A stretch of 20,303 nucleotides of DNA from a virus, in IMG/VR virus record IMGVR_UViG_3300030107_003165, positions 1-20,303 of that record. The stretch is one strand, 5' to 3'. The translations under genes and the position numbers were made by a program. Positions 484 through 20,200 of this stretch are shown here, in pieces (position 1 is the stretch's first letter; each line of letters starts with the position of its first letter). A model generated the notes under the pieces. That model was not told the DNA's origin. It saw only the letters and a list, made by a program, of their open reading frames with translations, and ran no database searches.

Positions 484-487
484 AATT

Positions 488-640: not shown

Positions 641-659
641 ACTTTAAAACAATAAAATT

Positions 660-986: not shown

Positions 987-1012
987 ACAATTAAAAACTA
1001 AAATTAAATAAA

Positions 1013-2465: not shown

Positions 2466-2476
2466 AACCATTAGAT

Positions 2477-3253: not shown

Positions 3254-3266
3254 AAATAAAAAAGCC

Positions 3267-3473: not shown

Positions 3474-3474
3474 T

Positions 3475-3891: not shown

Positions 3892-3901
3892 ATTATTAAT
3901 T

Positions 3902-4162: not shown

Positions 4163-4176
4163 TTAAATGAATGATT

Positions 4177-4259
4177 AAGGGGAGTGCTCGTTGTAAGTAG
4201 CGGTTATTCACTCAAACGTACATGTAGTTAATTCAAGCATGTGAGAGCTCCCCTTTTTT
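4177..4259 (+). terminator. Branched hairpin with T-run after the SSB-like gene (terminator or structured RNA)
   Basis: A closing stem pairs 4179-4189 (GGGGAGTGCTC) with 4243-4253 (GAGAGCTCCCC), with one G.A mismatch and one G-U. It is extended by AA/TT and followed by six T residues (4254-4259). Inside are two further stems: GTT/AAC plus GTAAGTA/TTATTCAC (4190-4217, imperfect) and ACATG/CATGT (4220-4224 with 4238-4242). This would give a three-way junction. It lies 14 bases after the stop of the SSB-like gene. A simple terminator would not need inner arms, so it may also act as a stable small RNA or origin structure. Confidence 0.5.
4204..4212 (+). other. Near-consensus DnaA box (TTATTCACT)
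   Basis: TTATTCACT differs from the DnaA box TTATNCACA only at the last base. It lies inside the first inner arm of the structured gap, 313 bases after the end of the DnaA-domain gene. In DNA this AT-rich a single near-match can be chance, so its value depends on the opposed site at 4310-4318. Confidence 0.3.
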
Positions 4260-4271
4260 ATTAAAGAAATA

Positions 4272-4350
4272 TAGAAGGGTGTCTTTAGTAGATTACTTAT
4301 AATAAATCATGTCCATAATCTACGACTGTGTTCTAAAAGGCACCCCTCTA
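4272..4350 (+). ncRNA. Second long branched dyad ahead of the replication genes
   Basis: The closing stem pairs 4272-4286 (TAGAAGGGTGTCTTT) with 4336-4350 (AAAGGCACCCCTCTA): 14 of 15 positions pair, with one A.C mismatch and one T-G. A perfect inner 8-bp stem joins GTAGATTA (4288-4295) and TAATCTAC (4316-4323) around a 20-base loop. Unlike the first element there is no T-run, so termination is unlikely. It ends 19 bases before the start of the helicase-loader-like gene. It could be a regulatory leader, a small RNA, an RNase-processed element or an origin hairpin. Its dimensions parallel the element 20 bases upstream. Confidence 0.35.
4310..4318 (-). other. Near-consensus DnaA box (TTATGGACA on minus strand)
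   Basis: On the minus strand this reads TTATGGACA, one mismatch (sixth base) from TTATNCACA. It overlaps the loop and 3' arm of the second dyad's inner stem and faces the opposite way to the site at 4204-4212. It is significant only if the gap is an origin; otherwise probably chance. Confidence 0.25.
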
Positions 4351-4369
4351 ATTAAAACTAAAAACCTAT

Positions 4370-4870
4370 ATGTATTTAAAACTAAAAAACAATATGTCCG
4401 TAGACAGTAATGCTATAATAAGCTTTACTATGATGGATAAAACTATACACATATTAACTAAATATAGTGATATGCCTGTAGTTGTTACGTATAATTCAGA
4501 AGAGGATTGTAAACAAACCTATCTAAATTTAGACACACACTTTAAATCAAAAAGTCTTCATAAGGAAAGAAGGGTTATAAAAGAGTCTGACTCAGATCTA
4601 AAAACAAAAGAAGCTTTATTTAAAACATTCTGGGATTCTTATAATAAAAAGATAGGTACGCATAAGTGCAAAGAAAAGTTTATGAGATATAGTATTACTA
4701 ATATGGGTAAGATAGTATCTTCTTGTATAGAGTATGTAAGAACAACTCCAGAAATTAAGTATAGAAAAAACCCTTTGACTTGGTTAAATGGAGAATACTG
4801 GAGGGATCAAAAAGAAATAACAAAAGAAAAAGTAAAACAAGATTTTGATGTAGATCAATTATTTAGATAA
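4370..4870 (+). CDS. Phage replication/helicase-loader-like protein (166 aa)
   Basis: The C-terminal half (about 83-147) carries the pattern LFKTFWDSYNKKIG...YRKNPLTWLNGEYWRD. This matches a module found at the ends of many phage replication initiator or helicase-loader proteins (FW..YP.K..., then ...R.P.TWLNG..W.D). The N-terminal 65 residues are strand-rich with no known motif. The final A of its stop codon is the A of the next ATG (TAATG at 4868-4872), so it is translationally coupled to the primase-helicase. I infer that it helps load that helicase or initiates replication at the neighbouring gap. Confidence 0.6.
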   Translation: MYLKLKNNMSVDSNAIISFTMMDKTIHILTKYSDMPVVVTYNSEEDCKQTYLNLDTHFKSKSLHKERRVIKESDSDLKTKEALFKTFWDSYNKKIGTHKCKEKFMRYSITNMGKIVSSCIEYVRTTPEIKYRKNPLTWLNGEYWRDQKEITKEKVKQDFDVDQLFR

Positions 4871-6630
4871 TGAGTTTAAACAACGATAGAATAAATATAG
4901 ATAACAATAACTCCGAGGAGGTTAGACTTGTGTGTAGAAACTGCTCACATGATCGTAAAAAGAAAAACGAAAAATGTCTAGCAGTAAATGGAGAGTCTGG
5001 TGCGTATGTTTGTCATCACTGTGGAGACAGTGGTATATTAAACACTCATAAAACTTATACAAAAAAAGAAAAGATCCAGTATAATAGACCGATATTAAGT
5101 AACACTACGGATCTTTCTGATGAAACCTTACAATGGTTTAGCACTAGGGGTATAACACAAAGTGTTATTAAAAGAAATAAGATAACACAGAAAAAAGAAT
5201 ACATGCCTCAAGTATCTAAAGAAAGGCAAGTGATATGCTTTAATTACTACAGAGATGGAGAGCTTATTAATATTAAATATAGAGACGGAGAAAAGAATTT
5301 TAAACAAGTAAAAGATGCTGAAAAGATATTTTATGGACTAGATGATATTAATGATTGTGAACAAGTTATTATAGTAGAGGGAGAAATGGATAAGTTAGCT
5401 ATGGAAGTGGCTGGTTATATAAATTGTGTTTCTGTTCCTGATGGTGCACCTAATCCTGGTACAAAAAACTTTAATAATAAATTCTCTTATTTGGATAATT
5501 GTTGGGAATATTTTGAGAACAAAGAAAGAATATATTTATGTACAGATAATGATGTAAATGGAAGAGTTCTGTTAGAAGAAATAAGCAGAAGACTTGGTAG
5601 GGAAAGGTGTTATATAGTAAAGCTACCCGATGATACAAAGGACGCTAATGAAATGCTACTTAAAAAGGGTCCAGTAGGAATAGCAGAAGCTATATCTAAC
5701 GCAGAGCCCTACCCAGTTGATGGTGTGTTCACTGTTAATTCTGAAAAAGAATATATGATTGATGTGTTTAACAACGGTAAGAAGAAAGGGTTAACAACTG
5801 GCTATAGTGTTTTAAATAATCATTATACCTTAAGAACCTCAGAGTTAGATGTGTGGACAGGTATACCAGGATCAGGAAAAACTATGATGGCTCTACAAAT
5901 AATGCTCAACGCATCTGTTATGTATGGATGGAAGTGGGGAGTATTTTCTCCAGAGAATTATCCTATTGGAGATTTGTTTGATACACTAGCAGAGATGTAT
6001 ATAGGGAACACCTCTGATCTTGATGTGGAAGATAGAATGAGTATACATGATTATGAAACGGCTATAAACTTTTTGCACGAACATTTCTTTGCTATATATC
6101 CTGAAGATGATTTTTCTTTAGACAATATACTATCAAAGTTTAAACACCTAGTAATGAGGTATGGAATAAAAGGTTGTTTACTAGATCCATTTAATCAGCT
6201 GGACCATAACTTTAAGGGTAAAGATGAGACTACTTATATAGGAGAATGTTTAACAAAGATAAGAAGGTTTGAGCAAGTTAATGATCTTAAGTTTATTATA
6301 ATAGCACACCCTAGGAAAATGGATAGGGATGAAAGAGGTGGCTATAAACAACCAACTGCCTATGATATAAGTGGTAGTCAGAACTGGTTTAATAAAGCAG
6401 ATAATGTTATCTGTATACATAGAAACGATTCTATGGATATAAGCAACACCTCTGTTAAGTTTACAGTTCAGAAGGTTAAGTTTCAAAAGCTTGTAGGTAT
6501 ACCAGGAGAAGAAGAACTTAAGTATGATAGAAGATCTGGTAGGTATTTAGACTTTTCTAACTCCTGTCCTTTAGATACAATAAGTGGTACTCACAGTGTT
6601 TGGTCTAGGATAGAAAATACTTTTAGATAA
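4870..6630 (+). CDS. T7 gp4-like DNA primase-helicase (586 aa)
   Basis: A bifunctional replicative enzyme. An N-terminal zinc-binding module has CRNC (22-25) and CHHCG (48-52). The TOPRIM primase domain shows IIVEGEMDKLA (167-177, E170 catalytic) and CTDNDVNG (224-231, metal-binding D226/D228). A RecA-fold DnaB-type helicase follows, with Walker A GIPGSGKT (331-338), Walker B CLLDPFNQLD (436-445), the IIIAHPRK strand with sensor His (477-484), and a SGSQNWFNKADNVI segment (501-514). Total length and domain order match T7 gp4 (566 aa). It should unwind DNA and prime lagging strands at the fork. TAATG junctions on both sides couple it to its neighbours. Confidence 0.92.
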   Translation: MSLNNDRINIDNNNSEEVRLVCRNCSHDRKKKNEKCLAVNGESGAYVCHHCGDSGILNTHKTYTKKEKIQYNRPILSNTTDLSDETLQWFSTRGITQSVIKRNKITQKKEYMPQVSKERQVICFNYYRDGELINIKYRDGEKNFKQVKDAEKIFYGLDDINDCEQVIIVEGEMDKLAMEVAGYINCVSVPDGAPNPGTKNFNNKFSYLDNCWEYFENKERIYLCTDNDVNGRVLLEEISRRLGRERCYIVKLPDDTKDANEMLLKKGPVGIAEAISNAEPYPVDGVFTVNSEKEYMIDVFNNGKKKGLTTGYSVLNNHYTLRTSELDVWTGIPGSGKTMMALQIMLNASVMYGWKWGVFSPENYPIGDLFDTLAEMYIGNTSDLDVEDRMSIHDYETAINFLHEHFFAIYPEDDFSLDNILSKFKHLVMRYGIKGCLLDPFNQLDHNFKGKDETTYIGECLTKIRRFEQVNDLKFIIIAHPRKMDRDERGGYKQPTAYDISGSQNWFNKADNVICIHRNDSMDISNTSVKFTVQKVKFQKLVGIPGEEELKYDRRSGRYLDFSNSCPLDTISGTHSVWSRIENTFR

Positions 6631-7112
6631 TGAGAGAAAAAAGATATGAAAAACAAATAGATAGAAACAGGCAGTCTAAAGCACTATCGCAATTATGCAA
6701 GGAGCACAGGCTGGGGTTTGTAGAACTAGAGTCTTTAAGCAAAGTGGATGCTGTCTTATTTGATGAGAAAACATTAGGAGAGGTTGTGAAAGGTGTTAAC
6801 GAATCAATAGGAGAAAAGAATTATGTTAGGGTTTCTGTTAGAAAATTACATCACTGTCAAAAACAACAGATAGAAGAGGGTAGACCCGTTTGTATTGTAT
6901 GGGCCTTTTATGATGGTATAGGTTATATATGGGTTAAAGATATTGAAGGATCTGTTAAATGGTTAGGGATGAAAAAAATAAGGCCTGGGTCTCTATGGGA
7001 TAGAGAGCTCATGTTTTATATGAATCAAGATAAATTAAAATATGTATTATATGAAGAAAATAATGTTAATAGCGATAATGCTGGGGAGTCAGTTGTTCGC
7101 ACAGATAGATAA
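6630..7112 (+). CDS. Unknown protein, possibly decayed PD-(D/E)XK-like (160 aa)
   Basis: Coupled to the primase-helicase by TAATG at 6628-6632. The central part (about 25-115) has an alternating pattern: VDAVLFDE, LGEVVKGV, YVRVSVRKLHHCQK, RPVCIVWAFYDGIGYIWVKD. The order Asp-strand, xVVK strand, helix, hydrophobic strand resembles restriction-endonuclease-like folds in other phage proteins. However, the catalytic ExK would read VVK, so activity is doubtful. The C-terminal 30 residues are polar. Its position between helicase and endonuclease fits DNA metabolism. This assignment is weak; it may be an unrelated family. Confidence 0.55.
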   Translation: MREKRYEKQIDRNRQSKALSQLCKEHRLGFVELESLSKVDAVLFDEKTLGEVVKGVNESIGEKNYVRVSVRKLHHCQKQQIEEGRPVCIVWAFYDGIGYIWVKDIEGSVKWLGMKKIRPGSLWDRELMFYMNQDKLKYVLYEENNVNSDNAGESVVRTDR

Positions 7113-7434
7113 CGGAACTTATTATTGTAATGATATTCATAACAGCTTATCTGAAGATCAAATTGTTGTTCACACAAGTCCTGTAAATGGGTACTCGTAC
7201 TTATATATAGATGAGTACGGAATTAGAATAAAGCACAATAAGAATATAGGTTTTTATTATCCATGGGCTTATATAGGAAAATTTGTAGGCTATCAAACAT
7301 ACCTATTAGATAATGGGGATAAGATTGTGTTGGCTCCAGAAATAAATGGACTCTATCATTTTTATGACAGACAGGATGATGAAAAAGAATATAAAAAATT
7401 AACTGAATATCGTAATGTTCAAAAGAAGAAGTAG
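7051..7434 (+). CDS. Secreted small protein with Sec signal peptide (127 aa)
   Basis: From ATG 7051 the product begins MKKIMLIAIMLGSQLFAQ: a Lys pair, a hydrophobic core, then LFA before Gln. That is a standard signal peptide of Bacteroidota, where cleavage just before Gln is common. An in-frame ATG at 7042 would add only MYY and fits a signal peptide less well. The mature part is strand- and Tyr-rich (YSYLYIDEYGIRIK, YQTYLLDNGDKIVL) and looks like a small beta protein of the periplasm or outer surface. It overlaps the upstream gene by 62 bases and the downstream one by 20. An exported protein inside a replication block is odd; it may alter the envelope early, for example superinfection exclusion. 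No family recognised. Confidence 0.65.
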   Translation: MKKIMLIAIMLGSQLFAQIDNGTYYCNDIHNSLSEDQIVVHTSPVNGYSYLYIDEYGIRIKHNKNIGFYYPWAYIGKFVGYQTYLLDNGDKIVLAPEINGLYHFYDRQDDEKEYKKLTEYRNVQKKK

Positions 7435-7888
7435 AAATAAAAAAGTTAGAAATGCTACAACAAATACCTATAAAGGTATTAAGTTTAGATCTAAATTAGA
7501 AAGATTTACTTATCAGTATTTAACATCTTGTAAAGTTCCTTTCGATTATGAAAAGGTTAGGTTCACTGTTATGGACCCATTTAAATATGAAGGAGAGTGC
7601 ATAGAAAAAAAAGTAAGTAAGGGTAAGAATGTTTTCTTTAAAGTTTCAAACAGGATATCTAAAGCAACTTATCTACCAGACTTTGTTAATTTAGATCAAG
7701 GCTGGATCATAGAATGTAAAGGAGTTAGAACAGAAGCCTTTAATTTAAGGTGGAAGATGTTTAAAAAATCACTTGTAAAAGAGAAAAAAAATTACGATCT
7801 TTATATGCCTGGTACTCAAAAACAAGTTGTTGAGACTGTGGAAATGATAATTAAAAAAAATAAAGATGTTAAAAGGAATATTAAATAA
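7415..7888 (+). CDS. PD-(D/E)XK endonuclease, phage endonuclease I/DUF1064-like (157 aa)
   Basis: The layout is that of small phage endonucleases of the restriction-endonuclease fold: KGIKFRSKLERFTY (20-33) with the first acidic residue E29, FDYEKVRFTV strand (43-52), LPDF (87-90) with D89, and IIECKG (98-103) giving the E100-x-K102 catalytic pair. A following helix ends in LRWKMFK. Members cut branched or junction DNA, as T7 endonuclease I does, or serve as resolvases. A role in resolving recombination/replication intermediates or host DNA degradation is inferred. It overlaps the upstream secreted-protein gene by 20 bases and the holin gene by 23. Confidence 0.8.
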   Translation: MFKRRSRNKKVRNATTNTYKGIKFRSKLERFTYQYLTSCKVPFDYEKVRFTVMDPFKYEGECIEKKVSKGKNVFFKVSNRISKATYLPDFVNLDQGWIIECKGVRTEAFNLRWKMFKKSLVKEKKNYDLYMPGTQKQVVETVEMIIKKNKDVKRNIK

Positions 7889-8255
7889 ATTAGTTGGTGA
7901 CGCTGGAAACATTATAGATAATGTAGTTACTACTAAGGAGGAGAAAATGAAGCTAAAGAACGAGATGAAGAAGATGCTTCTTGACTCTGAGAATGATTTA
8001 CAAAAAAACGTTACTGATCGTTGGACCGCAGACATGAAATCAGATAGCTGGTTGAGTAAAAATGTACGGCCAATGACCCTTATATTTGTGCTAGTATGCA
8101 CTATGTTATTAATCTTTATTGATGCTGGAACTATAGAGTTTCATGTCGAAGAAAAATGGACGGATCTGTTACAATTAGTTTTGATAACAATCGTGGGATC
8201 CTATTTCGGAGGAAGGTCCATCGAAAAGTTAAAATCAAATAATAAAAATAAATAA
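7866..8255 (+). CDS. Holin, 3-TM gene-transfer-release type (129 aa)
   Basis: The marker segment RWTADMKSDSWLSKNVRPMT (52-71) is typical of the GTA/phage holin family PF11351. Two clear hydrophobic helices follow (about 69-88, TLIFVLVCTMLLIFIDAG; and about 99-114, LLQLVLITIVGSYF), then GGRSIEKLK and a basic tail. The N-terminal 45 residues are amphipathic and charged. It should sit in the inner membrane and form the lesion that lets lytic enzymes through. It overlaps the upstream endonuclease gene by 23 bases. Finding a holin at the end of the rightward block, away from the wall-degrading genes on the other strand, is notable. Confidence 0.8.
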   Translation: MLKGILNKLVGDAGNIIDNVVTTKEEKMKLKNEMKKMLLDSENDLQKNVTDRWTADMKSDSWLSKNVRPMTLIFVLVCTMLLIFIDAGTIEFHVEEKWTDLLQLVLITIVGSYFGGRSIEKLKSNNKNK

Positions 8256-8256
8256 A

Positions 8257-8553
8257 ATGAAAGAAAATAAATTAGACGAAAAAGAAATATCAGAAATTAG
8301 AAATGCAAGAGCTGATAACGGAATGATAGCTTACGAAATGGGTAGGTTAAAAATTGAAGTTATAAACCTTGAGTCTAGATTAGACGATCTAGATAAGATG
8401 GAAGAAGACATGGTGGCTAGGTATAAAGGCAATGTAAAAAAAGAAATGAAAATGACCTCTAAGCTTAGTAAAAAATACGGAGAGGGCTCAATAGACCTAG
8501 AGAAGGGCGTATTTATATCTTCAGAGAAGAGTAATATCATACTACCTAAGTAA
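8257..8553 (+). CDS. Coiled-coil hypothetical protein (98 aa)
   Basis: Starts two bases after the holin stop. Residues about 10-70 are charged with heptad spacing (MGRLKIEVINLESRLDDLDK), a good coiled coil. The tail KYGEGSIDLEKGVFI resembles the ends of short phage coiled-coil proteins of unknown role. No signal peptide or membrane helix, so it is not itself a spanin. It is the last gene of the plus-strand block and could be a small structural/chaperone protein or a holin partner. Confidence 0.65.
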   Translation: MKENKLDEKEISEIRNARADNGMIAYEMGRLKIEVINLESRLDDLDKMEEDMVARYKGNVKKEMKMTSKLSKKYGEGSIDLEKGVFISSEKSNIILPK

Positions 8554-8585
8554 AAGAAAAACCCGCTAACGGGGAGTTAACGGGT
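8551..8585 (-). terminator. Intrinsic terminator of the minus-strand late transcript
   Basis: On the minus strand, ACCCGTTAAC (8585-8576) pairs with GTTAGCGGGT (8570-8561) around a TCCCC loop. All ten pairs form (one G-U), and the stem runs straight into TTTTCTTTTA (8560-8551). The minus-strand genes end at 8679. Read on the plus strand the same hairpin has a C.A mismatch and no T-run, so it is a poor terminator for the rightward block, which stops at 8553. Confidence 0.7.
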
Positions 8586-8678
8586 CTTACAAACTAAAAA
8601 CCATGAAAAACAGATGTGTTTCACATTATCAAAGATAATAAAATATATTATATATAACAATATATTCCTAAAAACTTA

Positions 8679-9176
8679 TTAACAACTTATTGGTGAAGAC
8701 GCTTTATCGAAATCAATATATGTTATATTAACTTCCTCTCCATCTTCTATAGCTTTCATTATATGATCGTAAACTCTTTTATAAGCTTGAGTTGATTTGC
8801 CTATAAATCCGTTTGTAATAATTTGATTATTCTCTTGAGAGTCTCCAACAAGAAGACATCCTGCTGTATGCTCATCTGTGTTTCCACAGTGGATTAATAT
8901 GTATTCAAAACCTGGGACATCCACAATATGAAGCATACCACGGTGAGCAGTCCCAAATCTTTTCTTATATTTTGAATGGAATCCACCAACTTTCCTAACC
9001 TTAATCTTGTAAGATCCAGCTGGTATACGAGTCTCCCCTTTAACTTTACTCTTTCTCTCCTCATCTTCTAGGGTGTAGCATAAGAATTTTTTACCATCTA
9101 GTGTGTTACTAGAGTCGAACAGTATTCCATTAGTAGAATCTGACTCACTAGAAAACCTTACTACCTCAAGTTCCAT
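8679..9176 (-). CDS. DUF5675 family protein, L,D-transpeptidase-like motif (165 aa)
   Basis: Recognised by GETRIPAGSYKIKVRK (47-62), GGFHSKYKKRFG (64-75), HRGMLHIVDVPGFEYILIHC (78-97) and GNTDEHTAGCLLVG (98-111), which together define DUF5675 proteins of phages and Bacteroidota. The pair H96 ... G106-C107 imitates the His...Gly-Cys centre of YkuD/L,D-transpeptidase folds. A peptidoglycan cross-linking or cutting role is plausible but unproven. There is no signal peptide, so it would need the holin or delivery within the virion to reach the wall. Its ATG directly follows the stop of the upstream virion-type gene (TAAATG). It is the last gene before the terminator. Confidence 0.75.
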   Translation of the reverse strand: MELEVVRFSSESDSTNGILFDSSNTLDGKKFLCYTLEDEERKSKVKGETRIPAGSYKIKVRKVGGFHSKYKKRFGTAHRGMLHIVDVPGFEYILIHCGNTDEHTAGCLLVGDSQENNQIITNGFIGKSTQAYKRVYDHIMKAIEDGEEVNITYIDFDKASSPISC

Positions 9177-9590
9177 TTACGCAGATATGAATAACATGTA
9201 CTCAAAAGTCATGCTAGTAGCTACACTAGGAGTAACTTTAATATCATTATCTGTATCATGAGCTCCCCAAGGTATAAACATCCAGTCTCCAGCATATAAT
9301 CTACCAATCTCCTCAGCATTAATAGAAACAGTTAAGTATTCTGATCTAGTTGTAGAACAGTTCTTAACATATACTTTATGAGCTTTATTAGCACCATAAG
9401 CGGTGTGCGGAGCAGCGTTAAATAAAGTAACATCTGAGGTAGATGTTGTTGTTTTTCTAGCAGGTCCTCGAGCTTGTGTTACTCCAGTTGTTGTTCCAGC
9501 GTCATATAACGTAGCTGTTGTTGTTAAACTTAATGAGTCTGTTAAAAGATCACTAGATGTTAATGTAATTTGTGCTGTTGTTGTTGCCAT
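9177..9590 (-). CDS. Virion-type beta-rich protein, paralogue B (137 aa)
   Basis: Thr/Ser-rich at the start (MATTTAQITLTSSDLL) and strand-rich throughout. Features include a KAHKVYVKN strand (69-77), GRLYAGDWMFIPWG (95-108) and a TPSVATSMTFEYM C-terminal strand. It is a clear duplicate of the gene directly upstream: the first 28 residues and the GRLYAGDWMFIPW segment are almost identical, with the middle diverged. Size, Thr-rich jelly-roll-like strands and late position suggest a capsid decoration, spike or minor head protein. No signal peptide. It has an 18-base gap to its twin and shares that gene's transcript. Confidence 0.65.
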   Translation of the reverse strand: MATTTAQITLTSSDLLTDSLSLTTTATLYDAGTTTGVTQARGPARKTTTSTSDVTLFNAAPHTAYGANKAHKVYVKNCSTTRSEYLTVSINAEEIGRLYAGDWMFIPWGAHDTDNDIKVTPSVATSMTFEYMLFISA

Positions 9591-9608
9591 TTGTAATTAA
9601 TTTTTATA

Positions 9609-10004
9609 TTAAGATGCTATTATAACCATATATTCTACTGTAACTGAAGTTGAGACATTTGGAGTTAACTTTACATCTGTATCACCATTCCAAGGGATAA
9701 ACATCCAATCACCAGCGTATAGCCTACCAACATTTTGACTAGCAAGTTTAACATCTACTCTATCAGAAGCGGTAGTCCCAACATGTTTTACGTAAATCTT
9801 ATGAGCCTTATCATCAGCGTAGTCCGCTTCAGCAAGCAAAGTATATTCAGAATTAGCAGTTGTTATCTTTCTGGATAAACCGCTAGTTTCAGTGACACCT
9901 ACCGAACTTCCAGTATCAGTTAAAGTGGCTGTAGTTGTTAAGCTTAACGCATCAGTAGTTAAATCGCTAGATATTAACGTAATTTGTGCAGTCGTTGTTG
10001 CCAT
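9609..10004 (-). CDS. Virion-type beta-rich protein, paralogue A (131 aa)
   Basis: Starts MATTTAQITLISSDLTTDAL and shares with its downstream twin KAHKIYVKH, GRLYAGDWMFIPW and TPNVSTSVTVEYM. The centre differs, including charge (EADYADD here). It is probably a small exposed structural protein of the particle; exact role unknown. A Bacteroidota-type promoter lies 32-62 bases upstream and the leader before ATG is almost pure A, suggesting strong expression of this pair. A dominant structural product such as a decoration protein would fit. Confidence 0.65.
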   Translation of the reverse strand: MATTTAQITLISSDLTTDALSLTTTATLTDTGSSVGVTETSGLSRKITTANSEYTLLAEADYADDKAHKIYVKHVGTTASDRVDVKLASQNVGRLYAGDWMFIPWNGDTDVKLTPNVSTSVTVEYMVIIAS

Positions 10005-10035
10005 TTATTTTTTTTTAAATTGTTAATAATTTTAT

Positions 10036-10066
10036 CAAATATAATTCTTTTATACCTTAAATCCAA
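10036..10066 (-). promoter_or_regulatory. Bacteroidota-type promoter (TTG-N20-TAnnTTTG) for the paralogue pair
   Basis: On the minus strand, TTG (10066-10064) and TATATTTG (10043-10036) are 20 bases apart. This matches the Bacteroidota sigma consensus TTTG/TTG, 17-23 bases, TAnnTTTG. Transcription would begin about 25 bases before ATG 10004. The -33 element overlaps the extreme 3' end of the upstream gene, a common arrangement for an internal promoter. Confidence 0.5.
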
Positions 10067-10770
10067 GATCCAGGACTAAAAATATCAGTACCTTTATCCA
10101 TAAATTTTGGAACAACTCCTTGTGGATCACTATCTCCAGTTTCACTAGGAACGTTGTGATCAAAAAAATCATCATAAAATTCATTAAAGTTTTCTAATAA
10201 ATCATCATAATCCTCATCCCCTTCTTCACCAACACCTTTACCATTATATCCTAAATACCAAGTTTCCCAAATATCTTGAGAGGTCATCTCTGGTAATGGG
10301 TTAGGATCAAGTGAATACTTTAATCTAGCCATATAAGCCCCTGTTAAAGCGTTATCGTTGTTTAAGTCTTTAACAAACTTCTCCATACTCTCAGGGTCTC
10401 CAGGATTATAACCAGCTCTTTCTAAAAATTTATTGTAATTATTATTTCTAAGTTGATCTGTTTTTCTACCATGTTTGTCTACAGCATAACCACTTTTAGT
10501 AAGTATATCATTAAGAAAATCCTCATCTATAGACCATGGGCCGCTAGTGTAATCCCTATTATAAGAGTCATCATTATAACCTAAAGAGTTTTCTAAAAAA
10601 GCAGTGCTTATTAATAGTGCTGATAATTGTTTCTTGTTTTCTTCTGATGTATCATCATTCTCTAGAACCTCATTTATAGCATCCATTATTTCTTTATTTC
10701 TATCCTCTTCAGACTTTCCATTCTTTTTGTTAGCCCTTGTTCCTCCTGTTTTCTTTTTATTTAATAACAT
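10057..10770 (-). CDS. Lysozyme-like/virion-associated muramidase candidate (237 aa)
   Basis: A basic N-terminus (KKKTGGTRANKKNGK) precedes a helical domain (about 25-180). This has TAFLENSLGYN (56-66) with a candidate catalytic Glu (E60), then YTSGPWSIDEDFL (74-86), similar to the Glu...GP(W/Y)QID pattern of lysozyme/transglycosylase-like proteins. RLKYSLDPNPLP (149-160) and IWETWYLGYNGKG (167-179) resemble the conserved end of phage lysozyme-like proteins. The last 60 residues are very acidic. It would cleave the glycan strand during entry or lysis. The assignment is by pattern, and catalytic identity is uncertain. Confidence 0.5.
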   Translation of the reverse strand: MLLNKKKTGGTRANKKNGKSEEDRNKEIMDAINEVLENDDTSEENKKQLSALLISTAFLENSLGYNDDSYNRDYTSGPWSIDEDFLNDILTKSGYAVDKHGRKTDQLRNNNYNKFLERAGYNPGDPESMEKFVKDLNNDNALTGAYMARLKYSLDPNPLPEMTSQDIWETWYLGYNGKGVGEEGDEDYDDLLENFNEFYDDFFDHNVPSETGDSDPQGVVPKFMDKGTDIFSPGSWI

Positions 10771-10772
10771 AA

Positions 10773-10946
10773 TTATATTTCAAATCCAAAGTTTAATATC
10801 ATAAGTCTACACCTTTTACATTCATTATCTTTTTCACAAGAGTTAAGGCAAAGGTAAAACTCAAATATAGTTAATGTTCCAAACCTTAATTTTATATCAA
10901 GTTTGTTTTTTTTATTTCCTTTTTTCCAAGAGTTAATCCAATTCAT
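10773..10946 (-). CDS. Cys-rich microprotein (57 aa)
   Basis: ATG at 10946 lies one base after the stop of the thioredoxin-like gene, and its stop is two bases before the next start, so it fills an otherwise empty gap exactly. The product begins MNWINSWKKGNKKNKLDIK and has C33, C37, C43 and C46 (CLNSC...CKRC), a spacing that could bind zinc or form disulfides. It is basic with a central aromatic stretch (IFEFYLC) and no classical signal peptide. Function unknown. Confidence 0.65.
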   Translation of the reverse strand: MNWINSWKKGNKKNKLDIKLRFGTLTIFEFYLCLNSCEKDNECKRCRLMILNFGFEI

Positions 10947-10947
10947 A

Positions 10948-11349
10948 TTAATTAAATTTATTTAGTAATAATGTGTCAATGGAGTTCTGTACAGTTTTTT
11001 TATCAGCATCTAACTGAAACATAACAGTGGCTCCAAATTTTTCTTTAAGTATTCCGTTGTCAAATATAATAACTGTAGGTATAGCCGATACATCATAATT
11101 CATTTGAATGTCCATATGTTTTGATATATCTATTCTATAGACCATACAATCTTTTAATTTTTCTAATTCTTTAAACTCATTCTGAGCATTCCATCCAGCC
11201 CAAAACTCCACAACAACAATGTCTTTAGCTATTTTATTTTTAAAATTATCTGAAGAAATAAATTCCTGACTAAAGGCGGTACCACAAGTAAATATTAATA
11301 TCATTAATAATATGTAAACAAAACCTGTAATATCTATTCTTTTTGTCAT
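10948..11349 (-). CDS. Exported thioredoxin-fold protein lacking CxxC (133 aa)
   Basis: A long hydrophobic N-terminus (about 8-27, ending TAFSQ) is a signal peptide or anchor. The rest follows the thioredoxin fold: VVVEFWAGW (45-53), a helix, MVYRIDISKH (69-78), then YDVSAIPTVIIFDNG (85-99) with the conserved cis-proline P91. Where thioredoxin has WCGPC, this protein has WNAQN (53-57), so both redox cysteines are lost. It cannot act as a normal oxidoreductase and more likely serves as a binding or scaffold domain in the periplasm. It overlaps the upstream gene by four bases (ATGA). Confidence 0.75.
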   Translation of the reverse strand: MTKRIDITGFVYILLMILIFTCGTAFSQEFISSDNFKNKIAKDIVVVEFWAGWNAQNEFKELEKLKDCMVYRIDISKHMDIQMNYDVSAIPTVIIFDNGILKEKFGATVMFQLDADKKTVQNSIDTLLLNKFN

Positions 11350-11690
11350 TTTTTTAGTTCTTTAAGTTCATCTTTAAGTTCGTCTAATTCTTTTATTATA
11401 TTATCAATTTTCTGTCTAGCCATCTCATCTTTCATATTAAACTCCATTCTAGTTGGTGGCCAAGTTTGTGATGCAGCAGGATCCCCCATATCTATAGTAT
11501 ACGTTCCTGTTCCTGGCTTAGGTTTTTCTAGAGCCTCCTCAACTTTTTGTTCTAGCTCTACGAATTTAGTATTTATATTTGAAAGCATTCCATAATAACC
11601 AGCAATAGCGGCAGCTACACCAGCTATGATCCAAGCAAGGGTTTTAATACTTATTTTAAACTTACTGTCTTCTGATAATTCTTTTGTCAT
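11346..11690 (-). CDS. Membrane-anchored coiled-coil protein (114 aa)
   Basis: A short polar N-terminus is followed by one membrane helix (about 18-36, LAWIIAGVAAAIAGYYGML), then a heptad-rich segment (KFVELEQKVEEALEK). A Pro/Gly/Thr linker (KPKPGTGTYT) and a final coiled coil (IIKELDELKDELKELKK) complete it. This is the architecture of an inner-membrane protein with a periplasmic rod, like many phage spanin-like or lysis-regulator proteins, but no outer-membrane partner motif is visible. It lies next to a small holin-like gene and an exported thioredoxin-like gene. Confidence 0.6.
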   Translation of the reverse strand: MTKELSEDSKFKISIKTLAWIIAGVAAAIAGYYGMLSNINTKFVELEQKVEEALEKPKPGTGTYTIDMGDPAASQTWPPTRMEFNMKDEMARQKIDNIIKELDELKDELKELKK

Positions 11691-11707
11691 TTTATTTCTT
11701 TTTAATA

Positions 11708-11726
11708 CCCCCCTAATAAAAGGGGG
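11708..11726 (-). promoter_or_regulatory. Short GC hairpin between holin-like and coiled-coil genes
   Basis: CCCCC on the minus strand (11726-11722) pairs with GGGGG (within 11713-11708) around a TTTTATTA loop, in a 58-base spacer. No good T-run follows on the minus strand (TATTAAAAAG), so it is a weak terminator at best. It could partly attenuate transcription or protect an mRNA end. Confidence 0.35.
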
Positions 11727-11748
11727 ATATCTTTTAAATAGTTGTTAT

Positions 11749-11988
11749 TTATTTTTTATCACAATTCTTCTCACAGTTTTTCTTAGCGAATTTTTCAACT
11801 CCACTAATACCAAAACAACCAAGAACAATCCACACAAATGAATCGTATACAAACTCGTTTATAACTAAGTCTGAGCCAGTCCATCCTGTAATCATATCAG
11901 CCATCATAATCATACACATAATAAGGAACGCAATAAAACCAACTATAGCTTTTTCATTCCAATCGTTATTGTCTTTAAAAATATTCAT
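11749..11988 (-). CDS. Small two-helix holin-like membrane protein (79 aa)
   Basis: Two hydrophobic helices (about 14-34, AIVGFIAFLIMCMIMMADMI; and about 48-65, VYDSFVWIVLGCFGISGV) flank a short polar loop. A charged, Cys-containing tail (EKFAKKNCEKNCDKK) follows. Size, topology and basic tail fit a small holin or antiholin. The end of the second helix plus EKF resembles the G..sxEKL end of the plus-strand holin, hinting at a distant relation. Late position beside a coiled-coil membrane gene supports a lysis or virion-entry role. Confidence 0.6.
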   Translation of the reverse strand: MNIFKDNNDWNEKAIVGFIAFLIMCMIMMADMITGWTGSDLVINEFVYDSFVWIVLGCFGISGVEKFAKKNCEKNCDKK

Positions 11989-12006
11989 TATAAAATTATT
12001 TAATTA

Positions 12007-12381
12007 TTAAATCCTTTTGCCACCATCATATTCCGTAGCGTGACCTTCACTAACAAGCATCTCGTTAATACAGGCTTGGGTTATTGTATCCTTTCCTGAT
12101 AATTTGTTGATATATATAACACCAAGAACCCTTCCGTATTTTCCAATCTCCTTGCTTTCTAGTTCAAAAACATTAGCAGCTCCCTCCATTAATTCTATTA
12201 ATCTTTCTTTAGCGGCCAGTCCTAGTTTTTTTTCTACTTTATTTCTAGTTCTAGACTCTGGTGCATTAATACCAGCAAGTCTAATTCTTTTTTTAACTTG
12301 TATATCAAAACCTAAGTCAATCATAGCATCTACAGTATCTCCATCTACCACCCTAACTAAGGTTGCGTTATAATAATGCAT
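12007..12381 (-). CDS. Staphylococcal nuclease-like (SNase/thermonuclease) protein (124 aa)
   Basis: Clear SNase fold motifs: VVDGDTVDA (11-19, metal-binding Asp), IRLAGINAPES (33-43, with catalytic R34 and E42), and EIGKYGRVLGVIYI (78-91, with catalytic R84). The final part, INEMLVSEGHATEY, matches the usual C-terminal helix. It should be a Ca2+-dependent endo/exonuclease that cuts DNA and RNA. Unlike many bacterial relatives it has no signal peptide, so it acts in the cytoplasm or is packaged. One base separates its start from the stop of the upstream secreted-protein gene. Possible roles are late host DNA degradation or delivery with the virion. Confidence 0.88.
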   Translation of the reverse strand: MHYYNATLVRVVDGDTVDAMIDLGFDIQVKKRIRLAGINAPESRTRNKVEKKLGLAAKERLIELMEGAANVFELESKEIGKYGRVLGVIYINKLSGKDTITQACINEMLVSEGHATEYDGGKRI

Positions 12382-12382
12382 A

Positions 12383-13126
12383 TTATTTTATTTTAAATTT
12401 AACCTTCCCGTCCTCTATGTACAAACCATTAGGTTTTCTTATCTCTTTACCTAGTAAATCATATATTCTATTATCTCCTTTAGAGTTTTCTAAAAACTCA
12501 GGTATATTAGACGTACAAGGAAGGCCCGTATCACAATCTAAATATTCTGTGTTAATTACCTCTACATACTCTATTATAGTATCTGTAGTAAAAAACTCTA
12601 TGTATTCTGTTTCTATTTCTACTATTGTGTCAAATACAAACACATCTACATACTCTATTACATCTATAAACATAGTATCTAATGCTCCTTCCATCCACAA
12701 CGTGTCTGTAACAAATATCTCTTCAAATATAGTTTCATATTCAATTTCTACTATAGTATCAAAAACTATTTGTGTAATATATTCTGTGTTATAAATAGTA
12801 TCTGTTTGGAAAATAGTTTCATATATATAAACAGGTACATCTACATATACAGTATCACAATCTGGTGGGGGCGGTATACAATCTAAAGGTAAAGTAGGAA
12901 CTACATCATCCCCCTCATCGCTGGCATCCACACAATCGACCCACCCATCGTTAATCCAAGATGTTTGAACACAGCCTAAAGGAGCGTATTGGGTCCAGTT
13001 TGCTGGATCATCTCCACAGTAAAACCCTTCTGCCTCAGCACATTGTAAACATAATTGTTGAAAATCGTATTGTGCGTTAGCAAACGAACTTATAAACGCA
13101 AATAGTATTATAATATATTTCTTCAT
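12383..13126 (-). CDS. Secreted LDLa-like/repeat-stalk protein with T9SS sorting-type C-terminus (247 aa)
   Basis: Four regions are visible. A signal peptide spans 1-19 (ending SSFANAQ). A Cys-rich module (26-71) ends in WINDGWVDCVDASDE (57-71), closely like the calcium cage of LDL-receptor class A repeats. An acidic Thr/Ile/Tyr-rich stalk (about 90-200) has many DTI/DTV steps, including VFDTIVEIE at both 121-129 and 164-172. The C-terminus (221-247) reads IYDLLGKEIRKPNGLYI, then DGKVKFKIK, matching the type A sorting domain used by the T9SS of Bacteroidota. The prediction is export by Sec and delivery to the host outer surface by the host T9SS, or incorporation in a fibre. It sits two bases after the beta-barrel gene. 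Confidence 0.8.
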   Translation of the reverse strand: MKKYIIILFAFISSFANAQYDFQQLCLQCAEAEGFYCGDDPANWTQYAPLGCVQTSWINDGWVDCVDASDEGDDVVPTLPLDCIPPPPDCDTVYVDVPVYIYETIFQTDTIYNTEYITQIVFDTIVEIEYETIFEEIFVTDTLWMEGALDTMFIDVIEYVDVFVFDTIVEIETEYIEFFTTDTIIEYVEVINTEYLDCDTGLPCTSNIPEFLENSKGDNRIYDLLGKEIRKPNGLYIEDGKVKFKIK

Positions 13127-13128
13127 AA

Positions 13129-14190
13129 TTAAAATATTAAATAGTTAAACCCAAACTTTACTTCGTAAATTTCTTTACCCCAGTACCTCATGTGAGTCCC
13201 CTCTACAAATAAACCAAGGTTTTTAGTTATTCTAGTACCAAACACTAAACCAGCATCCCACTCTATATTGTCCCCATCATACTCATAAGAATATTCATCT
13301 AATCCGTAATGATATGGCAAACAATTAAACCAACCATGAATCCATGTTGTTGGTGTGTACTTATAATAAGCTAATCCTACTACAGCACTAAGCTCTTTTT
13401 GTAAACCTAACTTATCTAATTCTTGCTCATTAAATCTAGCGACAGCATCACCAAACCACCAATTATAAAATTCATCATTTGATGTAGCAATCAATATAGA
13501 ATCACCGCTACTAACGTCATACCAGTTTTGATCTACATAAAAACCTTGTACCCACTGTTCTGAAGCGTAACCAAAATCTTCTGCTAAATCTTGAAATGTA
13601 GATTCTCCAGGTACCCAAAAATCTTCAATAGGGTTTATCCCGTATGCTGGGTGAACTCTAAATACACTACCAATAGTTAAATCCCAATTACCTTTACTCA
13701 ATCTAAATCTGTAATCTAAAGAAGTATATTTTAAATTTACTCTTTGGTTGTCCGTGTATTGTGCTTTCGCAACGAATTTATTTCCAAGGTATCTAAGCCA
13801 GAAATTTTGCTCAGTAAACTTATCACCCCTATTCCGTATAAAAGAATAATTAAAAAGATACTCCCAACCAGGAGCGTTACCAATAGTAACGTTGTCTGCA
13901 GTATTTCTTTCAGTACCATAATACCATGTTTGGCGTTTTGTTTCATAATCAAATCTTGCTATTTTTCTCAGGCCTATTGTTAAATTATAATCATAAGGAC
14001 TAACCCAAGTCACATCCTCATAACCTTTATCTACCGCTATATAGTCTTCTCTTTCTGTAAAAGGTGTACCAACCGTTACTGAAGTATAAAAAGTAGAATA
14101 TTTAAAAAAGTCTTCTATTTGTGCACAACATTTTTTTGGTGTAGCACACGATATTAGTAATACTAATAATAATAATATTAATTTTTTCAT
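13129..14190 (-). CDS. Predicted outer-membrane beta-barrel protein (353 aa)
   Basis: The N-terminus (MKKLILLLLVLLISCATPKK) is an export signal. LISC fits a lipobox (C15), while CCA|Q at 23/24 fits ordinary signal peptidase, so lipidation is undecided. The mature part is a run of amphipathic, aromatic-rich strands (YNLTIGLRKIARF, FWLRYLGNKFVAKAQY, WDLTIGSVFRV, LSAVVGLAYYKY, VFGTRITKNLGLFVEG). It ends in a strand closing with Phe (EVKFGFNYLIF), the usual outer-membrane-protein insertion signal. No enzyme motif is visible. It probably inserts in the host outer membrane late in infection, perhaps for lysis or superinfection exclusion. Similar barrels occur unannotated in environmental marine phages, as far as I recall. 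Confidence 0.7.
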   Translation of the reverse strand: MKKLILLLLVLLISCATPKKCCAQIEDFFKYSTFYTSVTVGTPFTEREDYIAVDKGYEDVTWVSPYDYNLTIGLRKIARFDYETKRQTWYYGTERNTADNVTIGNAPGWEYLFNYSFIRNRGDKFTEQNFWLRYLGNKFVAKAQYTDNQRVNLKYTSLDYRFRLSKGNWDLTIGSVFRVHPAYGINPIEDFWVPGESTFQDLAEDFGYASEQWVQGFYVDQNWYDVSSGDSILIATSNDEFYNWWFGDAVARFNEQELDKLGLQKELSAVVGLAYYKYTPTTWIHGWFNCLPYHYGLDEYSYEYDGDNIEWDAGLVFGTRITKNLGLFVEGTHMRYWGKEIYEVKFGFNYLIF

Positions 14191-14238: not shown

Positions 14239-17200
14239 TTATTGTTTTTCTTTCTTTACGTATTCTTCCATTAAATCGTTCCAGTAATTTTTAAAATCCT
14301 CGTTTTTACTATACTCTACACGAAGGGTGTTAATATCTTTCCAAAGCTGTTCGGGAAAACCCTCTCCTTTTAATTTATTATACTTTTCCCAATCGTGAAA
14401 AAGAAGATATGCAGCAGCCTCAGGTTCATTGTAAACCTCAAATGCGTTAACAATATCCTCTAACTGAGGGCTCATTACACCAATACCTAATTCCGCATCA
14501 ACCATTTTTTTAATCTGTTTCTTTATATAATCTTCTGTTTTTTCATTAAAGCCTTCGTCTGACAATCTATCTTCAGTAGTTATACCCATAGCCTCAATAA
14601 ACGTTCTTTTAGCCATATCAATAGCATCATCTCCTATAAAATTATATATCTCTCCCATTGAAAGTTTTAAAGATATCTTTTCTCCTATTTTGTTGTTCAC
14701 AAGGTACTTTTCCCCATCTATAGTTTTAAGCTCAAAACTATAAAAATCAAGTGCTTCATTAACCGATTTTTGTCTTATAGCTATTTGCTGATCTTTATTT
14801 TTAATTATCTCATCAGCATCTTTTTGTAATTGACTTTTCTTATCGTACTTAACAACCTCATAACTTATAAAATCATCCCCACCAACAGAGACACCTAAAT
14901 CATGAAGATACCTAGAAAACCAATTATCAAACTCTTTTTGTTCTTCTACACTTAAACCTTCTTTTATTTTATATGTAGCATCAAATACTTGGTAAATAAA
15001 ATTATCATCTAAATTAGTAAATATAGATCCTAACATTTCTTTTGTTCTTGTAACATCCCAACCAGTAAGATACTTGCTTATATCTCTTAAAAAAACATCT
15101 TTTTTCTCACTAAGTTTTTCAACCTGCAAGTGGCCATCTATAATCCTATCATCCCTTCTTATATTTCTATTTTTAAAAGCGTCATAATTAGCAAAGTATT
15201 TTAACGCTAAATTTAAAGTAGGGTATGACGATACCATATCCTCGAAGCTACCAAGCCCTGCGGGCATCATGTTTTTAAACCTTCTTAAATATTCTCCTTG
15301 ATCAAAATAAGACTCAGGAACAAATGGTGCATATTCCCATAAAGAATTTGAAACCCCTCTCCCTAATCTTTTACCTGTTATATTTTCGTAAGCATAATCT
15401 TCAAAAATTGTACTAGGAAAACTTACAAACTCAGGCTTACGTATTTTTATATACTGAGGGCTTCCATCGTCATTGTAATATCCAGTTAAATAAACCCAAT
15501 ATTTATCTAAAACATGATCTGGTATTCGATCATAATCATACTTTTTATTTTCTTGTAACAATATTCTTAATCTTTTTTCCTCTTCTTTATCCCCCCTTTC
15601 AACAGCCTGTTCTATTAATTTTTCTAATTCCTCCTCATCTTGCTCTCCCTCATATTGATATCTAGATAAATTCCAGGCCATTAATCCAGCTCCTAAACCA
15701 ATAGATATTTGAATTATATCTGACGCAAATAAGAAAGGGTGTTTTGATGCATGTTTAGCAGGTGTATAAACACTTTGCCAACTCGCATTAAGATAGGGAA
15801 ATCCCATATGATCTAGAGCTTTTATAGCAGTACCACCTTTATTAAAGTTTACAGTATTAGTAGAGTTACTAACAGCCCTTTTCTTTATTGCTAAAAGATC
15901 AGCCCCTGTTGGTTCCTTACCTCCATTTTCTTTTTTCCAATTATTTGTGTGTCTAATTAAATTTCTTTTATAATTAGCTAAACGTCCCATTTTCTCAGAA
16001 AATTGATTAAGGTACCCTAAAAATCTTTTAGTAGCCTCCCATGACCCTCTGTCTACAGGATTTGAAAACGGTTTATCTATTCCCTCTATTTGACCTAAAG
16101 ACTCCTCTCTTAAAGCTTGTTGTATAGCATCGTATTCTGATATGTTTGGGTCATTATTCATTATCTCAACTATTCTTTTAGATACTACATCTTTAGTTTC
16201 TTGAAGAAGATCTCCGTAACCACCCCTTCTAGAGTAAGCATAATAATAATCCATGCTACCACCTAGTTCGGCAAACTCTTTCCATAAAGGACCATCAAAT
16301 GCGGCTTGCTTTGCTACACTCATCCAATCAAAAGCAGCTAATCCTAATTTAGCATAAGTAAAATATTTTGTTATAGGATTTCCATGATAAGTTTTTGTAG
16401 CTAAAACTTGTTGGGCAAAATCTAAAGGCATGTTTGCCATAAAAAATGAAGGATTACCAAAACCAGTAGCACCCGTTTTTATCCCAATAGAAAACATCCT
16501 AGGTAAAATTAAATCTCTAGCCGCCTGAACTACAGGTCTATTGTAATTACTTTTAGGCCCCGTGTTAAAACTTTTGTAAGAAGATTTTAAAACAGCAAAC
16601 TTAATTTTTTTACCACCTTCTAAATAACTTACTTCAACATAATTCTCTGTATCTATAGGAGATTCTGGGGTAATTGTGTAACCAATAACATCCCTAACCT
16701 TAACAGTTTTACCATTTATTATTCCAAATAAATTTGATAAATTTTTAGTTTTTATAGGATCTTTTCCAGATTCAACTTCTTCCATTAATTTTATAAAATC
16801 AGCTAGTTTTTTTCTAGATTGATTTTCAAACCTAATCTTATAAGAGGCTGCTATACGCATTTGCATTAACCGTACTGGATCCATTAATAAAATCTCATCA
16901 CTACCGTGCTTTAATTTTTTAATAGGGCCGTCTAAATTATCTATCATAGGGGAGTCAGACTTTCTTGTTCTATGAACATTGGTTTCTGCAAACAGAAGGT
17001 GATCTAAAAATTTTCTAGGGTTATAATTTATGTCTTTTAATTCCGCATAAAGATCAGGATCAATAAGTCCGTTATCAAACTCTGTTTTTAGTATTTTCTT
17101 ATATTCCTCAAATATTTGATCACTCTTTCTTTTTTTAAGTTCCCACTCTGGGTCACTTTTTGATTTCACCTCAATAATCTTTTCAGCCCATTCTTTACTT

Positions 17201-20200
17201 AAACCGTGGCTTGTTTCATTATCAACATTAACTCCTGGAATCTTAGGGTGTTTTCTTCTATGAAATTTTTCCCCATCATAATTAAAACCAGAAGGCACAT
17301 CAACGGTTTCTCCATTAGAATCTTTAGCAACTAATTTATACTGACCATTTTCTACCACATATGACATTTTATCCCCAACTCCCATTTTTTCTATTAACTT
17401 ATCTAACTCTTTTTCTAAAGATTTAATTTGTTTTTTATCGGTAGTTTTATTAAGCTCTACTATTATAGCATCAGCAACTGATTTGTTTTGATCTGATAAT
17501 TGATCAAGTTGAATAACTCTATATAATGTGTTTATAAAACCAATATCTTTTATTTGGGGTTTAGTTAAAGCTTTTCCTGTTTTAGTAAAAAGACCACCAA
17601 CATAACCATATTTATGTATAGGATATACTCTATTCTTCTCATCTCTCCATAAACGGTTTTCAACACCTTTAGCGTATTCTTTAGCTGCACCTGGTGATTG
17701 TAATTCTAAACCCATCTCCACTAAAATCATCATGTCACTTTCTTTAAGGTTGTATTGTTTAGCTATATTTCTTATCCTTTTTCTAAGAACATATTTAGAC
17801 TCAACCGTTCCTACCATAAATTTTTCTGGAGATTTTTTTATAAACTCTAATAACCTAGCGAATCCATTTTTTCTGTTTCCAGAAATCTCAGAATCATGCT
17901 TATCTTTTATAGCCTTTTCTATATCTAAAATCTCTTGTTCTGTGTATTCTCTATCAGGACCCCTGTTTTGTGATTTAGGTTTTATTTTTTTAGGTTCTTT
18001 TAAAACATCTTCATTAATACTTTCTTTATGAGAGTCTTCTTTAGATATTTCTAAACTACCATCTGAATTAACTGGTATTCCAAAGTCTGAAAAACCTTCT
18101 GGATTTAATATATCATCTACATGATTTTGGAAATGAGCTCTTATTTTTTCTTCTACAGATTTATCAAAAACCTCCCCTTTTTTTGAGTTAGCTTTAATGT
18201 AATTTATACCAGCATCTATGGAGACTAAAACATTATTAGTGGCCCTAAGAGTTTTCTCCATTACATATAACCCAGCCTTAACGATTGGTGTTATCATAAA
18301 CGGATCATTATATAATCTTTTTCCTAGATCCTCTCGTAATTTTTTAAGTTGTTTAGCAAAGTCTAGTAAGATTTGAAATCTTTGAAGGCCTCTCTCATCA
18401 TGTGCATCTCCTGATTGTTTATTAATGATATCCTTGGAACTGTCCCCATAGTCAGCCGCTTTTTGTTTTCTGGCAAGTTCTGTGCCGATGTCAGTCTTAA
18501 ACGACTTTTCTTCTGATTTAATTGTTTCGTATTCGCCATTTGTAAAAATTTTAGTGTTAACATGTCCTTTCTCTATGGTGTTAAAAATACCTTCACCAAA
18601 GGTAGCTTTAATTTCTGCCAAAGCCGAGGCAGTGTTGTTTAAATGTTTTTCTTCAAACTCTTTTACATTATCTATAGTTAATCCATCTTCCATTAAAAAT
18701 TCAGGTATAAACTGGAATGATAATCCTATAGTTTGACCCTCTTGGTTTTTATGAATAGTAAACCCATCTATTTCATTGTTACGAAGTGCGTCTGAAATTT
18801 GTTGTAACTCAGTTTCATTAACTGGGCTATTAAACTCTATTCTAGTAAAAGGTCTTGCGTTTGGATGAGAAGAATCTGTTGTTACAGAAACAAAAACTTC
18901 ATTTTGATTATTATCAGACCCTATTTTTATAACTTGATTCACAACCCCTGAAATATCTGCGTCTTTATCAAAAACAATTTCAGCGTCTATATTTGGCTCA
19001 GCCTGACCCATATACATACCCTCTGATACAGAGGCTTTACCCGCTAAAGGATTTATTTCTAATATAGCTTCATTAAGATCGTTTATGGCTTGATCCATCC
19101 TAACCTCTCCATTAAGCTTATCGACCATCATAGCTTCTATTTCCATTTCAGGTAATCCCTTAGCTTGAGCCTCGGCAACAGCATCTGCTATTAAGTTATT
19201 CATTCTAGTTTGTTGTTGTTCAGTTACATTACCAATATAAGCCGTAGCTCCAATCATTAATCTTTCTGTAGACTTAGATGCAATAACTTGCTCTTCCATT
19301 GTAGATTTTTCAAAACCAGATTTATTAGAGTTCCATTTATTATTAAACCACGTATCTTTTTCTATAAACCACATAGCAGCTTGTAAATCATCTGCGTTCT
19401 CTAATCCTAATTTTTCAGCAGCTTTTTGATATACACTTTGAGCAAATGCAAAATCTTTAGCATTAACCCCATTTTCCTGTGAAGGACTAAATCTCCAAGG
19501 AGTACCTGAGTCCTGGTACAACAATCTTCTAAGATTTCTGCCCGCCCAAACATCTATAGTAGCTCTTTTATTTCTTCCAGAAAGATTTTCTGTAAATTGT
19601 TTAGTTTTAGGTCCTGGTTGCATATTCATCCAATGACCATATAAAACCCTAGTAATAGCACCCGTAGTTCCTGTTATGCCAAACATCATTCCATTTCTTT
19701 TTCGTATTCCAGAATTTTCAGAAGCTTGTTTAATTTGACTTATAAATATATCTTTTGTTTTTACTAAAGCTGGGTTTCCAAAGACACCTGACTCAAATTT
19801 TTCTATTATATTTTGGACATCTGTATTATAAGATTCTAAAGCTTGATCAAAATAACCCTGACTATACATCTCTATAGCCTCTGTAGCTTTCTGCCAATTA
19901 GCCTCTGGTGTTGATCTTGGAGATGTTACTCCTAGTAATTCAATAAAAGTATTAGAATTTGATCCAAACTTTTTTTGTATAAGATCTTTTGTTTTACTAT
20001 ACCAACCAAAACTCTCCTCAGAAATACCTTTGTTTTGATTAAATTCCTGAACCATTCTATCTGAAGAAACATTAATCTTCTGCTCCTCACTCATTCCTTT
20101 TAATACTGGGCTTTCGCTAAAGTCATAATTATATGTTTTAAAAAGAACCTCTCCCTTTGTATTTATAACCACCTTACCATCACCGTCAATCACTATCTCC

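Follow-up and report, generated by a model that had tools for sequence, protein, structure and literature searches.

A phage gene family for candidate T9SS cargo with a short sorting tail, an LDLa-like module and an outer-membrane barrel neighbour

Phage genes whose products carry the sorting tails of the T9SS have been described before. Cryophage encodes three T9SS type A cargos, which differ from one of its variants to the next, and its authors proposed that the phage hijacks the host T9SS and linked these proteins to superinfection (PMC7468147). In crAss-like gut phages, proteins with T9SS sorting domains are encoded near the head genes (PMC6949934), while P. gingivalis phages encode secreted proteins that follow the Q-rule (PMC10367356). 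In view of these precedents the idea of a phage T9SS cargo is not new, and the statement of an earlier note on the DNA analysed here, that no described phage cargo of this kind was known, does not hold, since the Cryophage and crAss-like proteins had been annotated earlier.

Among bacteria, a short form of the T9SS C-terminal sorting domain (CTD) is functional in Prevotella intermedia, the species from which it has been known so far and where 48 short CTDs of 43–55 residues are predicted, cleavage sites have been determined for five of them, the predicted fold is a three-stranded sheet, and CTDs bind the shuttle PorV (PMC11969387). Small C-terminal determinants are also known from HBP35, whose last 22 residues a GFP fusion needs in order to reach the cell surface (PMC3120885).

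The locus described here comes from an IMG/VR virus record of 20,303 nucleotides, the whole of which is called the window (20.3 kb). A plus-strand replication block with members of exonuclease and primase-helicase families is opposed in it by a minus-strand block that contains a gene for a cargo-like protein. The features of the locus are collected in Table 1.

Table 1. Features of the cargo-like gene and of its neighbours in the window (residue numbers refer to the cargo-like protein).
Feature	Coordinates	Strand	Basis
T9SS-cargo-like phage gene, 247 aa including signal peptide	12383..13126	-	ORF boundaries exact
Predicted signal peptide, residues 1-18, Q19 next	13073..13126	-	Q-rule; AF2 helix at residues 2-14
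Cys-rich N-terminal module, residues 19-90	12857..13072	-	Cys 26, 29, 37, 52, 65, 83 and 90 invariant
Candidate LDLa-like calcium cage WINDGWVDCVDASDE, residues 57-71	12914..12958	-	PF00057 and PDB profile matches
Acidic DT-rich repeat stalk, residues 91-197	12536..12856	-	Composition, repeat; AF2 pLDDT <50
Conserved CDTGLPC closing the stalk, residues 198-204	12515..12535	-	End of the Lys/Arg/His-free region
Candidate short T9SS sorting tail (CTD), residues 205-247, 43 aa, 7 K + 2 R	12386..12514	-	Profile, motif, composition
Predicted phage outer-membrane beta-barrel protein, 353 aa, upstream partner	13129..14190	-	AF2, Foldseek, synteny
Secreted thioredoxin-fold protein, NxxN for CxxC, frequent downstream partner	10948..11349	-	Pfam Thioredoxin, E 2.9e-9
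Small protein, apparent N-terminal membrane segment and coiled coil	11346..11690	-	Topology read from sequence; neighbour in 38 loci

Architecture of the cargo-like protein and its family

The earlier note had placed a gene for a secreted protein at exactly this interval without giving its strand; it lies on the minus strand, and frame 1 of the plus strand holds many stops there. The open reading frame is not a chance one, since 49 relatives were found in IMG/VR (45–87% identity, mostly near full-length matches) and the N-terminal module was subsequently found at 220 loci; among isolated phages (INPHARED) the protein has no relative. Searches of IMG/VR returned 261 loci with the neighbouring barrel gene as the anchor and the 220 with the N-terminal module alone, of which 80 each were taken into the analysis, and the motif and composition counts given below refer to 119 unique family members. 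One plan is common to all members: a signal peptide, a Cys-rich module, a DT-rich stalk, a CDTGLPC-like closure and a tail.

Two further readings of the note are borne out. The signal peptide that it recognised ends at residue 18 and is followed by a glutamine, Q19, which all 36 aligned members share and which marks a putative cleavage site according to the Bacteroidetes Q-rule (PMC10653852). The repeat that it described, VFDTIVEIE with a spacing of 43 residues, begins at residues 121 and 164; exact repeats in the stalk reach a length of 9 residues, and those in 2000 shuffled versions at most 7. The stalk itself ranges from 44 to 170 aa across the family. A weaker match to residues 65–170, mostly stalk, lies at positions 8001–8975 of a Bacteroidales MAG from goat omasum and may represent another stalked surface protein. 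Structure prediction, which the note had put forward as a check, was informative for part of the chain: AF2 gave a pLDDT of about 77–83 for residues 21–60 and 61–73 for residues 61–90, but fell below 50 in the stalk and reached about 63–72 in the CTD, where clear strands appear only at residues 234–238 and 241–245. Foldseek returned no match for the full-length model because the stalk is unmodelled.

The note had further compared the segment WINDGWVDCVDASDE with the calcium cage of LDLa domains, and here the cage stands but full LDLa membership does not. The Pfam model PF00057 matches the window protein at E 0.026 and 15.2 bits, below its gathering cut-off of 24.1 bits, and it matches 30 of 36 relatives with a best E of 4.2e-4. 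A profile of the N-terminal module compared with the PDB gave 47 matches, mostly to LDLa-bearing chains, with a best E of 6.5e-5 and the cage in register. All 119 unique proteins keep the acidic side chains at the four cage positions, D60, D64, D70 and E71, the ligand positions being those of LDLR repeat 5. On the other side, the fourth LDLa cysteine is replaced (by N59 in the window protein), leaving less than the six cysteines and three disulfides of an LDLa domain; five cysteines lie between the CGD motif and CDT in 118 of the 119 members, and the N-terminal half of the module is unlike that of LDLa. Because CysIV is missing and the score lies under the Pfam cut-off, the module is best classed as LDLa-like and not as a member of the LDLa family, and it probably binds calcium. 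Our literature search found no paper on phages with LDLa domains. The same module occurs twice in tandem (E 1.7e-28 and 2.2e-27) in a chromosomal protein of 1138 aa from a Crocinitomicaceae MAG (PBMY01000001.1); this protein ends in a long type A CTD (41.9 bits), and the module therefore belongs to the world of Bacteroidota T9SS cargo.

The C-terminal tail and the absence of basic residues

The final 27 residues of the window protein, IYDLLGKEIRKPNGLYIEDGKVKFKIK, were assigned by the note to the type A class of sorting domain. A T9SS-type tail is retained here, but not the type A class: the TIGR04183 model (T9SS type A; a domain of 72 positions with a curated cut-off of 23 bits) has no match at E<=10 in the window protein or in 36 relatives, nor any match elsewhere in the 20.3-kb window, and a short CTD fits better. 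The tail is 42–45 residues long in all 119 members and 43 in the window protein, within the range of about 40–55 residues, ending at the C-terminus, that characterises short CTDs. With the assignment made after the description in PMC11969387, a relaxed motif that places the putative motifs B, D and E in order and at the proper spacing is present in 119 of 119 members. TIGR04183 would be silent because the tail is a short form of the signal; the Bacteroidales tails considered below likewise escape this model, so the negative result says little against a sorting tail.

A profile built from the phage tails alone was compared with 149 Bacteroidales genomes and found matches in 13 of them at E<=0.05, with 20 matches in a single genome. 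The good matches end 2–5 residues before the C-terminus of large open reading frames, and some weaker ones are internal. SprA is present in all seven genomes tested, which include the one with 20 matches and, with four more, every genome that has a match at E<0.001. When the same profile was compared with 297 genomes drawn from across the Bacteroidota, it gave one match at E<0.001, which indicates that the search is not promiscuous and that short CTDs look rare outside the Bacteroidales; to our knowledge none has been reported from the likely hosts of the window phage. Profile-profile comparison of the phage and Bacteroidales tails gave a probability of 98.4 and an E of 9e-15, a value that is not independent because the Bacteroidales tails had been picked by the same profile, and the C-terminal position of the matches is the better evidence. 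Compared with the PDB, the CTD profile gave weak matches only, one of which is a Por-sorting chain (E 1.3), and we place no weight on them. Judged by length, motifs and profile, the tail matches the short T9SS CTD class.

The part of the protein that precedes the tail has an extreme composition. Residues 19–204 of the window protein contain no Lys, Arg or His, whereas the last 43 residues contain 9 Lys or Arg; given the 14% of Lys plus Arg in the other proteins of the phage, and taking the window protein by itself, 186 residues would lack both with a probability near 1e-12. Between the CGD motif and the CxxGxPC closure, all three basic residues are absent in 119 of 119 unique phage proteins, which are related and are not independent draws. 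Lys and Arg are absent from the first CxxC onward in 93 of 93, and the tail that follows contains 4–11 of them. The compositional border falls at the predicted start of the CTD, and we take its sharpness as independent support for a tail that would be cut off there.

A similar composition is seen in bacteria. The two-module Crocinitomicaceae cargo is devoid of Lys and Arg over residues 18–1079 (1062 residues), and the other T9SS cargos of this MAG are poor in them (median 3.4%), several having basic-free runs of more than 300 residues; the Bacteroidales cargos with short CTDs, at 6.9%, are less poor than these. Poverty in Lys and Arg could characterise the T9SS cargo of the Crocinitomicaceae lineage in general. 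As to why basic residues should be banned, one can only guess, for instance at resistance to trypsin-like proteases or at an anionic surface that repels.

The phage group, the barrel partner and the neighbouring genes

The window contains neither a terminase nor a capsid gene, and the affiliation of the phage was read from 19 related records, 18 of which encode a terminase of family phrog_6681 and eight a crAss-type capsid. The phrog_6681 terminase of one member record is common to crAss-like, Flavobacterium and Cellulophaga phages, and since the crAss-type capsid is found in only eight records, the group is broader than the crAss-like phages proper. The common terminase family phrog_2 is absent, phrog_6681 being the right family. 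By its primase-helicase, the closest isolate is a Tenacibaculum phage (39%). Together, the relatives of the terminase, this match and the Q-rule signal peptide point to a host among the Bacteroidota, probably in the Flavobacteriia. Many of the member records are presumably marine, to go by their IMG sample numbers.

The gene directly upstream of the cargo-like gene encodes a protein that carries a signal peptide, has an aromatic C-terminus and is modelled by AF2 as a closed beta-barrel (pLDDT 72). Nearly all of its Foldseek matches in the PDB are barrels of the outer membrane, none of them below E 1.5e-3, and the predicted fold resembles porins and channels; one viral protein of no known name matches it well (E 4e-27), and among isolated phages (INPHARED) it has no relative. 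An identity as PorV or PorP/SprF was rejected, as the NCBIfam and Pfam models found no match in 32 members, and so was a bacterial origin, 297 genomes having given one poor match with internal stops.

The two genes are tightly linked. In loci anchored on the barrel, the cargo-like gene lies downstream in 77 of the 77 with room for it, directly adjacent in 50, and all 78 module-anchored loci with room have the barrel upstream. The genes between and around them vary while the pair persists, and by this measure of gene content barrel and cargo belong to the core of the phages that have a crAss-like terminase. In many of the 27 loci where the two are separated, small variable genes stand between them, whose products have different bodies and a similar N-terminal tag, many starting with MAFKMKGxSAFTK or similar. 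Directly upstream of the barrel in the window is a giant open reading frame of 1987 aa (14239–20202); in a related record, positions 281–13831 hold one of 4517 aa followed by one of 1796 aa, which resemble the giant proteins known from crAss-like phages.

That a surface-type protein is obligately paired with an outer-membrane barrel, and that this barrel resembles porins and channels, would also suit a phage-encoded uptake or binding system, in which the calcium module captures an ion or ligand and the barrel imports it to feed the infected cell. We consider this unlikely, although it fares best among the alternatives, since the barrel has no match among known transporter families and shows neither a recognisable plug nor a TonB box, and the mature protein resembles a stalked module and not a substrate-binding lid.

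Downstream of the cargo-like gene, the thioredoxin-fold gene is present in 45 of 49 and in 70 of 80 loci; Asn54 and Asn57 of its product are invariant in 23 aligned relatives and the cis-Pro region is kept, and the protein is predicted to be a redox-dead thioredoxin. Elsewhere in the window, two paralogous proteins of 131–137 aa (MATTTAQITL...) are encoded side by side on the minus strand (9177–9590 and 9609–10004), with relatives that differ in copy number and position, and the opposite block (7042–7434, plus strand) encodes a small secreted protein, with what looks like a Q-rule signal peptide, whose gene overlaps the end of the preceding one.

The small protein at 11346–11690 has a weak spanin-like PHROG match (E 0.011), other small membrane proteins are encoded close by, and the same block encodes a DUF5675 protein. 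These neighbours would make sense if the cargo-like protein were not a T9SS cargo at all and instead acted with the barrel as a periplasmic or outer-membrane factor in lysis or release, its tail resembling a CTD by convergence. Such convergence would have had to recreate the order, spacing and C-terminal position of the motifs together with the compositional border in 119 of 119 proteins, and the module is common to a real T9SS cargo; this second alternative is accordingly improbable.

Proposed role and comparison with known systems

The architecture of the protein, its short-CTD match, the module held in common with a bacterial cargo, the basic-free mature part and the link to the barrel gene are features that can be read directly in the sequences. 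We propose that they reflect a pathway in which the protein would be exported by Sec and cleaved before Q19, its Cys-rich LDLa-like module would fold in the periplasm, binding calcium, and the 43-residue short CTD would be recognised by the host T9SS with its PorV shuttle. After export through SprA, the sortase PorU would cut off the CTD and so leave a mature protein without basic residues, displayed on the surface or released. The barrel encoded next door would serve as the outer-membrane partner of the cargo, and we infer a complex between the two; display together with the barrel is plausible. The outcome would be a remodelled cell surface, for example a shield against adsorption of further phages or readsorption of progeny.

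Surface display of a phage-encoded cargo by the host T9SS is likely, and it is the step that we hold with most confidence. To the explanation as a whole, a phage-made cell-surface protein that takes the host's secretion route and remodels the surface of the infected cell, we assign a probability of roughly 0.7. What the remodelling achieves is a more tentative matter: superinfection exclusion, receptor masking or protection from readsorption is possible, with the odds somewhat against it. An adhesin-like role and display late in infection, both proposed by the note, are conjectures. Still more speculative is the fullest form of the proposal, a core two-gene surface kit in which a polyanionic, calcium-binding T9SS cargo, fixed beside the barrel, bars other phages or progeny. 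Least probable of all is that the tail is a decoy, a short cargo flooding PorV and jamming the host T9SS so that surface proteins, possibly phage receptors or defence proteins, are blocked, for although the tail is a good CTD match and CTDs bind PorV (PMC11969387), a decoy would need neither a conserved basic-free mature part of 120–241 residues with a strictly kept calcium cage nor a barrel partner.

If the display of a phage-made cargo is correct, phages would use a secretion system found only in Bacteroidota as a standard component of infection and not as an occasional passenger gene, and a minimal T9SS signal would be defined outside Prevotella. The family could also serve to test why certain T9SS cargos lose all basic residues, and it would offer a handle on how Bacteroidota phages alter the surface of the infected cell.

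In comparison with known systems, the family shares with the short-CTD cargos of Prevotella intermedia a C-terminal tail of 40–55 aa with YNLxGQ-type (B), GlYI (D) and NGKxxxxK (E) motifs (PMC11969387); it differs in being phage-encoded, in its mature part, which is unlike theirs, and in that its export is predicted. With the Crocinitomicaceae cargo (PBMY01000001.1) it has in common the N-terminal module, there in two copies, and the absence of Lys and Arg before the CTD, whereas the bacterial protein is chromosomal, ends in a long type A CTD and contains many additional domains. Like Cryophage and the crAss-like gut phages, the window phage carries a gene with a T9SS sorting tail, but the cargos of those phages are built of other domains, those of Cryophage, which are highly variable, of endoglucanase, GH39 and PA14 domains, whereas the family described here combines a short CTD with a stalked LDLa-like module and has a barrel neighbour at every testable locus. 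As far as our searches show, what is new is that a phage protein has a short CTD, that its gene is core and not accessory, that it has a barrel partner and that basic residues are totally absent.
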